From Chloroflexota bacterium (GTDB taxonomy: Bacteria > Chloroflexota > Limnocylindria > Limnocylindrales > CSP1-4): DNA of 64,000 nucleotides. Of this stretch, positions 29,508-34,846 are shown one piece after another; within the stretch, counting starts at the first letter, position 1, and the number at the start of each line of letters is the position of its first letter. A model generated the notes under the pieces. It did not search any database and was not told the origin of the DNA. It was given only the letters and a program-made list of their open reading frames with translations. The stretch lies in assembly GCA_016191395.1 (NCBI GenBank), contig JACPOS010000017.1, forward strand, positions 124,001 through 188,000, in the 5' to 3' direction. Made by a program: the position numbers and the translations under genes.

Positions 29508-29528
29508 CGGGCTATGCTCCGGCGCACC

Positions 29529-30532
<1,004 letters not shown>

Positions 30533-30536
<4 letters not shown>

Positions 30537-31873
30537 GCGCGCCCCAGTCGGCCATTCCGGAACGCGTGGAGCCGGGCACGGTGGCGAACTCGTGGCTCGT
30601 CGCCCGGCGCGAGTTCCGCGAGCGTGTCCGCAGCCGGCTGTTCTTCGTGTCGACGCTCCTGCTGGCCGGCCTTGCCGTCGCGGTGTCGCTGACACCCGTG
30701 CTGGTCCAGTTCGCCGATCGTGGCACGACCACCAAGATCGCCGTGGTCAGCGACGACCCCGCCCTCACGGCCTCGTCCATCCAGATCCTCAACGGGATCC
30801 TGAACCCGACGCCCGTACCGGGCAAGGCGGATCTCTACTCCTTCGAATCTGCGACCGCTGGCCAGGCGAACGCCGAGACCGTCGCCGGCGGCGCCTACGA
30901 TGCGGCGCTCGTCGCGACCCGCCTGCAATCGGGGCAGATCACGTTCCAGCTGCTGACCAGCGAGCGGATCGGCACGGATCGGGTCCAGCTGATCCAGGTC
31001 GGCTCACTCGCCATCGGCATCTTCGACTGGATCAAGGTCAACGGCGCCGGGGTGACGGGGCCATTCCTTGCGCCGCGGTTCGACTCCGCCCAGGTCTCGG
31101 GTGGGGGCGGCGGAACCGCGGGGCCGGTCGGGGCGAGCGAGTTCGCCGGCCGCCGGATCGTCGGCGTCGTGTTCGTCGTCCTCATCTTCATCACGCTCGT
31201 GATCTACGGGATGTGGGTCGCGGCCGGTGTCGTCGCGGAGAAGTCCAGCCGGGTCATGGAGCTCCTCATCAGCGCCGCCACGCCGGCACAGCTGATCACC
31301 GGCAAGGTGGTCGGGATCGGGCTTGCCGGGCTCGTCCAGTACGTCGCGATCCTGATCCCGGCGCTGACGACGCTGTTCCTCCAGGACCGCATCGCGGGCG
31401 CGTTGCTCGGCGGCTCCAGCGGCGTCCAGCTGTCCCTCTCCGCCCTCAGCCCGGGCCTGCTCGCGGCCTACGGCGGCTTCTGGATCCTGGGATTCATCCT
31501 GTACGCGCTGATCTACGCGGCGGCCGGCTCGCTCGTGAGCCGGGCGGAGGATCTCCAGGTCCTCGCGCTGCCGCTCAGCATCATCGCCATCGTCGGCTAT
31601 CTCATCGCCGTCATGGCCCTGTCAGGTGGGATCAGCGGCGAGGTCCGCTTCGCATCCTGGGTGCCGTTCTGGAGCCCGTTCGTGATGCTCACCCGCCTCA
31701 CCGTCGCGCACGTGGAGCCGTGGGAGATCGCGCTGTCCTACGGGCTGTTGATCGCCGCGATCCCGCTCGTCGGCATCGTCGCGGTCCGCGTGTACTCCGC
31801 CGGCGTGCTCCTGTACGGGCAGCGCCCCGGCGCGCGAGCCATCGTGGGGGCCATCCTCCGACCACCCGTCTGA
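30533..31873 (+). CDS. ABC transporter permease (NatB/ABC-2 type)
   Basis: [68 protein letters not shown]. Confidence 0.92.
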
Positions 31874-31896
31874 TCCGGCGGCATCTGGGGCGCGCT

Positions 31897-31931
31897 GCGC
31901 CGCGCCGCGCCGCGCCGCGCCGCGCCGCGCC
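31897..31931. repeat. pentanucleotide tandem repeat (CGCGC-type unit, about 7 copies)
   Basis: gcgccgcgccgcgccgcgccgcgccgcgccgcgcc read directly. Confidence 0.85.
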
Positions 31932-31958
31932 CATGTGCGTCTCTTGTCGGCGCAATTC

Positions 31959-32087: not shown

Positions 32088-32828
32088 CTACTCCTCGTCG
32101 AACTCCAATGGAAGGCGGCGGATGAGTGCCAGGACGTGCTCGCTCCGGCCGGTGGCGTAGCCGGCGATGTCCGTTGCCGCGGCCATCGCAGCCGCATCCG
32201 CCCGGGCGCTCGTCGCGCCGCCCACCGCCACGCTGCGCCAGAGCCTGCTGCGGACGCCGGGCAGGTATGGGCTGGTCCGCTGCCGAGCTCGGATCCCGAA
32301 GAGACCCTGGCCGGTGACGGCCTCGAACAGGGCCTTTCCTTCGGCCGCGATCGACGGAACCGCGACGACCTCGTCGCCGGGTCGGAGGGCCTGGCGGAGG
32401 AAGGCGCGCCGCTTATCCAGGGTGAGGTTCAGGAGCGACCGCCCGTCGAGGTCGAGGATGTCGAACGCGAGGTAGGAGAGGGGACGCCCCGGCTCGCCCG
32501 CGAACCGCCGCGCGAGCTCCTCGTGATCCAGGCGTCCGGCGTCATCGACGACCACGATCTCGCCGTCGAGGACGGCCGACCGTGCGGCCACGCGTGCGGC
32601 GAGCCCAGCCAGATCCAGCGGCGCCGGGCCCCGCGTGCCGTCCTCGGCCACGAGCGCGACGTCGCCCATGCCGGCCTCGGCCGCAGGACCGATCAGCGCC
32701 AGTGCGCGTGCGCCGCCCCAGATCGGCTCGAACAGGTGCGCCGACGAGTCGAATGCCTCCGGCAACGGCCGCGCGAGCATCGGTCGCAACCCCGACGGCA
32801 GCCTCGGCACCGGCGGGTCGAGCCGCAT
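32088..32828 (-). CDS. ATP-dependent DNA ligase-like protein with degenerate catalytic motifs
   Basis: LRPMLARPLPEAF...LFEPIWGGARALAL...AVLDGEIVVVDDAGR...ELARRFAGEPGRPLSYLAFDILDLDGRSLLNLTLDKRRAFL...RTSPYLPGVRSRLWRSV. Confidence 0.8.
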   Translation of the reverse strand: MRLDPPVPRLPSGLRPMLARPLPEAFDSSAHLFEPIWGGARALALIGPAAEAGMGDVALVAEDGTRGPAPLDLAGLAARVAARSAVLDGEIVVVDDAGRLDHEELARRFAGEPGRPLSYLAFDILDLDGRSLLNLTLDKRRAFLRQALRPGDEVVAVPSIAAEGKALFEAVTGQGLFGIRARQRTSPYLPGVRSRLWRSVAVGGATSARADAAAMAAATDIAGYATGRSEHVLALIRRLPLEFDEE

Positions 32829-32876
32829 GGTGAGCTGGTCTGAAACGCCGTCCACGCGGTGTATCCTGCCACTCCC

Positions 32877-33857
32877 ATGGCCGTCCGCCAGCCAGACACC
32901 CTCTCCCGCGAGCGCGCCAGCGAGCTCGTCAGCGCGTGGGCGGGCGGGCGCCCCGGGCCGCTCGGGAGCGTGCTCGGGCGCCAGACCGCGGTGGACCAGG
33001 TTGGGGTGGAGCTGCGCGTCGAGACGCTCAAGAAGCGCTCGATCAAGAAGGCCTCCAAGCTGTGGGCCCTGGACCTCGCGATCCGGATGATGGATCTGAC
33101 GACCCTCGAGGGCCGCGACACCCCGGGCAAGGTCCGCGCGCTGTGCGCGAAGGCGATGCACCCCAGGCCCGGCGATCCCACCATCCCGAGTGTCGCCGCG
33201 ATCTGCCTCTACCCGTCGCTCATCGCCGAGGCGAAGGATGCGCTGCGCGGCTCCACCGTCCGGGTGGCGAGCGTTGCCACCGGCTTCCCGTCCGGCCAGA
33301 CGTTCCGGGACATCAAGGTCGCCGAGGTCAAGGCTGCCGTTGCCGCGGGCGCAGACGAGGTCGACATGGTCATCGACCGCGGTGCGTTCCTCGCGGGCGA
33401 CTACGCGACCGTCTACGACGAGATCGTCGAGATCAAGGACGCGTGCGGCGAGGCGCACCTCAAGGTGATCCTGGAAACGGGAGAGCTGGGCACGTTCGAC
33501 CAGGTCCGGCGCGCGAGCATCCTTGCCATGGCTGCCGGCGCCGATTTCATCAAGACCTCCACGGGCAAGATCCAGCCGGCGGCGACGCTGCCGGTGACGC
33601 TCGTCATGCTCGAGGCGATCCGCGACTTCGAGAAGGCGACGGGGCGCGCCGTCGGGATGAAGCCGGCCGGCGGGATCCGGACCGCCAAGGAGGCCGTGCA
33701 GTACCTCGTGGTGCTGTACGAGACGCTCGGCCCCCGGTGGATGACGCCGGAGCGGTTCCGCTTCGGTGCCTCGACCCTGCTCAACGACGTGCTGATGCAG
33801 ATCGAGAAGGAGCGCACGGGCCGCTACCAGGACCCCGACCACTTCACGATCGACTGA
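32877..33857 (+). CDS. deoC: deoxyribose-phosphate aldolase
   Basis: MMDLTTLEGRDTPGKVRALC; VASVATGFPSGQTFRDIKVAEVKAAVAAGADEVDMVID; ADFIKTSTGKI; MKPAGGIRTAKEA. Confidence 0.95.
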   Translation: MAVRQPDTLSRERASELVSAWAGGRPGPLGSVLGRQTAVDQVGVELRVETLKKRSIKKASKLWALDLAIRMMDLTTLEGRDTPGKVRALCAKAMHPRPGDPTIPSVAAICLYPSLIAEAKDALRGSTVRVASVATGFPSGQTFRDIKVAEVKAAVAAGADEVDMVIDRGAFLAGDYATVYDEIVEIKDACGEAHLKVILETGELGTFDQVRRASILAMAAGADFIKTSTGKIQPAATLPVTLVMLEAIRDFEKATGRAVGMKPAGGIRTAKEAVQYLVVLYETLGPRWMTPERFRFGASTLLNDVLMQIEKERTGRYQDPDHFTID

Positions 33858-33898: not shown

Positions 33899-34846
33899 AT
33901 GGCCACCTTCCGATCTGTCCGAGCCGCGACGACGAGACTCGCCGTTTCGCTCCTTGTCGTCCTCGTCGCGGCCGGTTGCGGCGGGGCGGCGAGTGGAACC
34001 GCCGGACCCTCGACGGTGCCGGCACCGACGGGCGGCGCCACGCTGACGGCGGGCCAGCTGCGCCTCCTCGTCATCGAGCGGTTCGGCGAGCGCTGGTATT
34101 GCGACCCGGACGAGTACCCGATCGCACGCGGCACCGAGCAGCAGCGCGCGATCGAGCGCTACGCGGAGATGGTCGCCGAGGGCGACATCTACAGGGCCGT
34201 GGCCGCGAAGCTCGGCATCAACGTCGCCGGCGCCATCACCGATGCGCAGAAGGTCGCGATCTACCATCTCTGGAAGGTCGCCCTGTCCATCCCGTTCGAC
34301 CCCATCGGGGACGGCCGGTACCGCTTCGACTACCTCGCGGCGCCGAAGGACGGCGGCGTCCAGGGCCTGCGCACCGCGGGCATCGTGAGCGCGGATGGCT
34401 CGATGGTGATCGAACAACAGGCGCCCGCCGGCGAGCCGAACTGCCCGATCTGCCTGGCGCGCGAAACCCGCATTGACACGCCCGGCGGGTCCATCGCGGT
34501 GCAGGACCTCCGCCTGGGCGACACGATCTGGACCCTCGATCGCGACGGCCACCGCGTCGCGGGCACGGTGATCGCGCTGGGATCCACCACCGCGCCGCCG
34601 GACCACCGCGTGATCCGGCTCACCCTCACCGACGGCCGGACCGTCACCGCGTCGCCCGGTCACCCGCTGGCGGATGGGCGCCAGTTCGGTGATCTCGCCG
34701 TCGGCGACCCCGTCGACGGGAGCGCGATCGCGAGCCTCGAAACCCTGCCCTATTCGGGCGGAGAGACGTTCGACCTCGTCGCGTCGGGCGCTACGGGGAT
34801 CTACTTCTCTGACGGCATCCCGCTCGGGAGCACGCTGAACCGCTAG
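33899..34846 (+). CDS. lipoprotein with C-terminal Hint (hedgehog/intein-like) domain
   Basis: Lipobox LVVLVAAGC; CLARETRIDTPGGSIAVQDLRLGDTIWTLDRDGHRV...LTLTDGRTVTASPGHPL...DGIPLGSTL. Confidence 0.75.
   Translation: MATFRSVRAATTRLAVSLLVVLVAAGCGGAASGTAGPSTVPAPTGGATLTAGQLRLLVIERFGERWYCDPDEYPIARGTEQQRAIERYAEMVAEGDIYRAVAAKLGINVAGAITDAQKVAIYHLWKVALSIPFDPIGDGRYRFDYLAAPKDGGVQGLRTAGIVSADGSMVIEQQAPAGEPNCPICLARETRIDTPGGSIAVQDLRLGDTIWTLDRDGHRVAGTVIALGSTTAPPDHRVIRLTLTDGRTVTASPGHPLADGRQFGDLAVGDPVDGSAIASLETLPYSGGETFDLVASGATGIYFSDGIPLGSTLNR

Follow-up and report, generated by a model that had tools for sequence, protein, structure and literature searches.

End joining in bacteria (NHEJ) is usually pictured as the work of two proteins, Ku and LigD. 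Among the eukaryotic non-catalytic end-joining factors, XLF, PAXX and APLF carry C-terminal Ku-binding peptides; bacterial Ku is without the vWA domain that these peptides use. The window analysed here, a 64,000-nucleotide stretch of a Chloroflexota genome, encodes a protein that resembles the ligase domain of Mtb LigD (Rv0938; PDB 1vs0 and 6nhx) in its NTase fold, with 30% core identity by structure alignment, and in the presence of motif III and the motif I Arg. In contrast to LigD, it has no nucleophile lysine, motif IV Glu or motif V Lys, it lacks the OB, polymerase and phosphoesterase domains, and it carries added terminal peptides. LigC and other stand-alone ATP-dependent ligases are comparable as lone NTase cores encoded outside LigD, but LigC keeps NTase plus OB and all of the motifs, and the copy in the window's own genome has the motif I Lys. 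A further likeness is to clamp-binding proteins of the Hda type (QLSLPL), where a QLxLxL peptide also sits at the extreme N-terminus before a folded domain; that domain is AAA+ in Hda and a ligase NTase here, and clamp binding by our protein is predicted from its sequence. Full-text searches of the open-access literature found no description of such a pseudo-ligase family, and a term search of PMC10140301 gave no mention of pseudo-ligases.

The original prediction placed a pseudo-ligase with an intact reading frame at 32088–32828. We confirmed the open frame on the minus strand, where it encodes 246 aa if read from the ATG at 32828 to the stop at 32088. The stop end of this span stood, whereas the translation start is probably the GTG at 32855, which gives a gene of 32088–32855 (minus strand) and a protein of 255 aa. 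We preferred the GTG on the evidence of the orthologues, almost all of which start with M/V-x-DQLxLxL: only the longer reading contains DQLTMRL, and with its opening VDGVSDQLTMRLD it shares this start. A probable Shine-Dalgarno sequence, AGGA (32864–32867, minus strand), reads 8 nt before GTG 32855; ATG 32828 has none.

Landmarks of a LigD/ATP-dependent ligase adenylation domain had been recognized in the predicted protein, and profile and structure searches upheld them. The Pfam model DNA_ligase_A_M matched at 2.1e-15, above its curated cut-off, and NCBIfam LigD/NHEJ-ligase models matched at 1.9e-25 and 5.5e-24, far below theirs. In the PDB the protein matched the Mtb LigD ligase domain (2.7e-12). 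An AlphaFold2 model made with 24 orthologues showed the NTase fold with a core pLDDT of about 90, and among the Foldseek matches listed for it all were DNA ligases (Mtb LigD 6nhx: E 1.4e-11, 30% identity). The OB domain is wholly missing, and the protein ends ~50 aa past the NTase core with a disordered linker and a tail. The variable linker (32139–32225, minus strand; pLDDT <50) lies where the OB domain would be, and its dN/dS is 0.44 against 0.17 in the core. We concluded that the window protein is a LigD-type adenylation (NTase) domain without an OB domain.

We mapped active-site residues by PDB alignment with Mtb LigD and by the LigD residue roles given in PMC8656161. Motif I reads FEPIWGGAR (32706–32732, minus strand) against FExKWDGxR in ligases, so that the nucleophile K481 is I36 and D483 is G38, just as originally proposed; the motif I Arg (R486) is kept. 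LigD R501 corresponds to E62. Motifs IV–V (GLFGIRAR...LWRSVA, 32226–32306, minus strand) are degenerate as well: E613 is F177, K618 is R182, K635 is S199 and K637 is A201. The claim that the motif IV Glu and Lys are both changed was borne out, with Glu to Phe and Lys to Arg, the latter change being conservative; WRSVA does stand at motif V where ligases have WLKIK. Besides R486, the protein keeps R629 and, by alignment, the motif III Glu in DGE (32559–32567, minus strand), and the window clade keeps the motif IIIa Phe-Asp.

These losses extend across the relatives. The motif I Lys was absent in 50/50 intact, non-identical aligned orthologues, and each window-clade member has something else at this position (I/V/A/M/L/S/W/N/T/R); the motif IV Glu is replaced by F or A, and K635 and K637 are gone. 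No orthologue with intact catalytic motifs was found, and the LigD and the LigC-like ligase of the window genome have the motif I Lys and intact motifs. An alternative lysine nucleophile was rejected, since 16/50 aligned orthologues contain zero lysine and no column has Lys in >30% of rows. It is also unlikely that GC-rich composition caused the loss, because LigD and the LigC-like protein of the same genome keep the motif I Lys and because most window-clade proteins have a hydrophobic or small residue there, not Arg. The catalytic residues have been lost family-wide, and the adenylation domain is dead by this measure. Its fold puts the window protein in the ligase superfamily, but the residues that define a ligase are gone.

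The gene is nevertheless under purifying selection: pooled dN/dS of the window clade was 0.19, and invariant codons of the gene show synonymous variation. Together with the absence of the Lys across orthologues, this supported the original view of a maintained pseudo-ligase, which also withstood both of the refutations proposed with it, intact motifs in relatives and another lysine as nucleophile. A profile search combined with a motif table placed the window-type gene in about 65–67 of the 107 genomes of its Chloroflexota family, named records put orthologues in Chloroflexota, and independent assemblies concur on the gene. The signature FEPxWGGxR occurred in 19/400 sampled Chloroflexota genomes, all from the window's family and one of them (G030) a false positive; a reversed-pattern control in the 400 genomes gave one match. 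The pattern matches in G030, G204 and G504 were discarded as false positives, read as VOC-like, protease-like and HisS-like frames.

Gene order at the locus is conserved across genera: deoC, the pseudo-ligase, an ABC permease, an ABC ATPase and a DUF971-like gene. In the window, the deoC-like gene (32878–33857, plus strand; deoxyribose-phosphate aldolase by reading) is the divergent neighbour, the ABC transporter permease-like gene (30533–31873, plus strand) is the convergent one, and the ABC transporter ATPase-like gene (29514–30536, plus strand) follows; all three are syntenic. The adjacency to deoC that had been pointed out is thus real, and syntenic in most close relatives, but it is probably not the functional clue. 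A link to deoC as the main clue was rejected: the neighbourhood is conserved, but several relatives carry further genes in the interval between the two. The functional clue is probably the Ku-linked sister clade described below. Among such insertions, eight relatives have a second S9-type peptidase-like gene in this interval. We also observed a lipoprotein-like ORF (33950–34846, plus strand), conserved near deoC in several relatives, whose C-terminal part reads as Hint/intein-type (CLARETRIDTPGGSIAVQDLRLGDTIWTL), and a short GC-rich ccgcg/cgccg repeat run (31894–31932) between the pseudo-ligase and the ABC permease gene, just 3' of the latter.

Profile searches revealed a second degenerate clade, marked by FEPWWPGxR. 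It occurs in other genera of the window's family and extends to one more family of the same class; the 400 genomes sampled across the phylum gave none beyond this class. Its predicted fold (pLDDT 84) again matches DNA ligases, and it has additionally lost the motif III Glu. Comparison of the two profiles gave 100% probability (E 2e-41) over a span that includes the C-terminal peptide, and by this measure of sequence the two clades are one family. In the tree, single branches set apart the window clade (99), the WWPG clade (96) and the intact ligases (96). If the root is placed among the ligases, this topology agrees with one shared origin for the two dead clades. No genome was seen to hold both. 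The WWPG gene lies in a Ku operon: in 29/32 genomes it comes after a co-oriented Ku gene at a distance of ≤1 kb, 13 of these genes start 5–11 nt past the Ku stop, and LigD also adjoins the gene in some genomes. Separately, five loci in genomes of family f4 encode a third ligase-like type, WLFEP[AFL]W[RP]G, which is without the motif I lysine, keeps the motif IV and V lysines (HYVAKHMNSRY...WLKLS) and forms its own well-supported tree group.

Both ends of the pseudo-ligase carry conserved peptides, and these are constrained more strongly than the linker: dN/dS was 0.13 in the N-terminal peptide and 0.07 in the C-tail. The N-terminal peptide is QLTMRL in the window (32820–32837, minus strand), with Met at the fourth position; the family consensus is [DE]QLSLRL, and in the pattern [DE]QL[STND][LMF]x[LF] the Q and L are invariant in 50/50 orthologues. 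Across the window clade this QLxLxL-type peptide occupies a conserved, exposed, disordered terminus and matches the motif for the bacterial sliding clamp (DnaN), for which a consensus of QL[S/D]LF and the tight hexapeptide QLSLPL of Hda have been described (PMC12309361). Such a motif lies ≤25 residues from the first start codon in 25/2,699 ORFs of the examined DNA, and about 21 of the 25 are pseudo-ligases. Most WWPG proteins have an N-terminal QLxLxL as well, five being without a clear one. At the other end, the peptide VLALIRRLPL (32106–32135, minus strand; VLALIxRLP[LF] overall) occurs in both clades, and no other segment is as constrained. Elsewhere in the window genome, on two contigs, a DinB has a C-terminal QLGLF and an ImuB-like protein has QLPLF; the latter adjoins a RecA/ImuA-like frame.

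The pseudo-ligase probably has a supporting role in DNA repair or replication that involves no ligation of its own; we consider such a role likely because the group keeps the gene intact and because the sister version is encoded directly behind Ku. More specifically, we tentatively favour an accessory of Ku/LigD end joining that is non-catalytic and tethered to the clamp, a reading that we hold with a little less than even confidence. The NTase body keeps the ligase fold without the adenylation nucleophile, the ligands for metal and phosphate, or the OB domain. The N-terminal QLxLxL peptide would tether the protein to DnaN, and the C-terminal ALIxRLPL, carried on its flexible linker, would dock another protein, for which Ku and LigD are the likeliest candidates. 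End-joining proteins might thereby be held or gated at clamp-loaded DNA. Clamp binding is predicted from the peptide; a second partner, a gating or scaffold function, and the extension of this role to the relocated window clade are proposed likewise. XLF, PAXX and APLF offer a likeness in that they combine a folded module, a flexible linker and a conserved terminal docking peptide with no catalysis; this is an analogy only, as the folds are unrelated.

Outside the Ku operon the association is looser. At its own locus the window gene is beside neither Ku nor LigD, and in the window genome Ku and LigD lie near each other on another contig with no pseudo-ligase between them. Presence of the gene was associated with Ku in the family (76/9 versus 7/15, p 1.5e-7). 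Among the window-clade genera, in which the two genes lie apart, the association held as well (59/8 versus 2/6, p 3e-4). The Ku link is shown for the sister clade; for the window clade it is statistical only, and suggestive, because incomplete genomes and shared ancestry affect the counts of both tests. In two Ku-less genomes the gene is damaged: it is split over two frames in G033, and motif I has decayed further in G407. Genus g6 speaks against a Ku/LigD accessory, having an intact copy in two genomes (89–90% complete) with no Ku or LigD match, though under a higher dN/dS of 0.35; the lack of a clear N-terminal QLxLxL in several WWPG proteins also counts against the favoured reading.

These observations bear on the strongest alternative, a clamp-bound regulator independent of end joining, exerting Hda-like replication or repair control, or a nucleotide sensor in the retained pocket. 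By this account the window clade has moved out of the Ku operon, and its clamp peptide now serves replication or repair control, as its relocated and fixed new locus, the g6 copies and the invariant clamp-like peptide would allow; the retained motif I Arg, motif III Glu and motif IIIa Phe-Asp are likewise in keeping with it. However, presence is still associated with Ku, the C-tail is common with the Ku-operon clade, and loss of the phosphate and metal ligands speaks against nucleotide sensing. We regard this alternative as unlikely, if the most serious of those weighed.

An improbable alternative is that the protein is a negative regulator or decoy, its dead domain occupying nicks, Ku or the clamp and so restraining the intact LigD paralogue. 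Co-encoding of the sister clade with Ku and the intact LigD in the same genomes are compatible with this, and PMC5201418 provides precedent for pseudoenzyme paralogues that regulate active partners. Yet with the OB domain and many of the ligase basic residues lost, competition for nicks would be weak, and the present evidence fits an activator as well as an inhibitor. Residual catalysis is very improbable. Some Lys-mutant ligases still join pre-adenylated ends, and a step-3-only enzyme that seals such AppDNA ends would not need the motif I lysine; the kept motif III Glu agrees with this, but the losses also take in the motif I Asp, the motif IV Glu, the two motif V Lys and the OB domain, and the sister clade is without even the motif III Glu. 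Finally, a decaying pseudogene or assembly artefact is hardly credible and recent decay is refuted by the selection data, for although catalytic residues are gone and at least one genome (G033) has a broken copy, frames are intact with a dN/dS of about 0.19 over many genera, the locus is conserved, the terminal peptides are invariant despite synonymous variation, and independent assemblies agree.

Returning to the end-joining accessory that we favour, a dead ligase domain has apparently been recruited to bacterial end joining; selection for a DNA-ligase adenylation domain after the loss of catalysis has rarely been described. The broader reading is possible, though we lean against it: that the clamp-tethered dead-ligase family is a third, non-catalytic component of bacterial NHEJ that joins Ku/LigD repair to the replication clamp, encoded in Ku-pseudoligase(-LigD) operons in one Chloroflexota class and at a separate locus in the window's lineage. 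If true, the usual two-protein picture would gain an accessory factor without catalysis, in the form of a conserved, Ku-co-encoded dead ligase with a clamp-type peptide, and end joining might be linked through it to the replication clamp.
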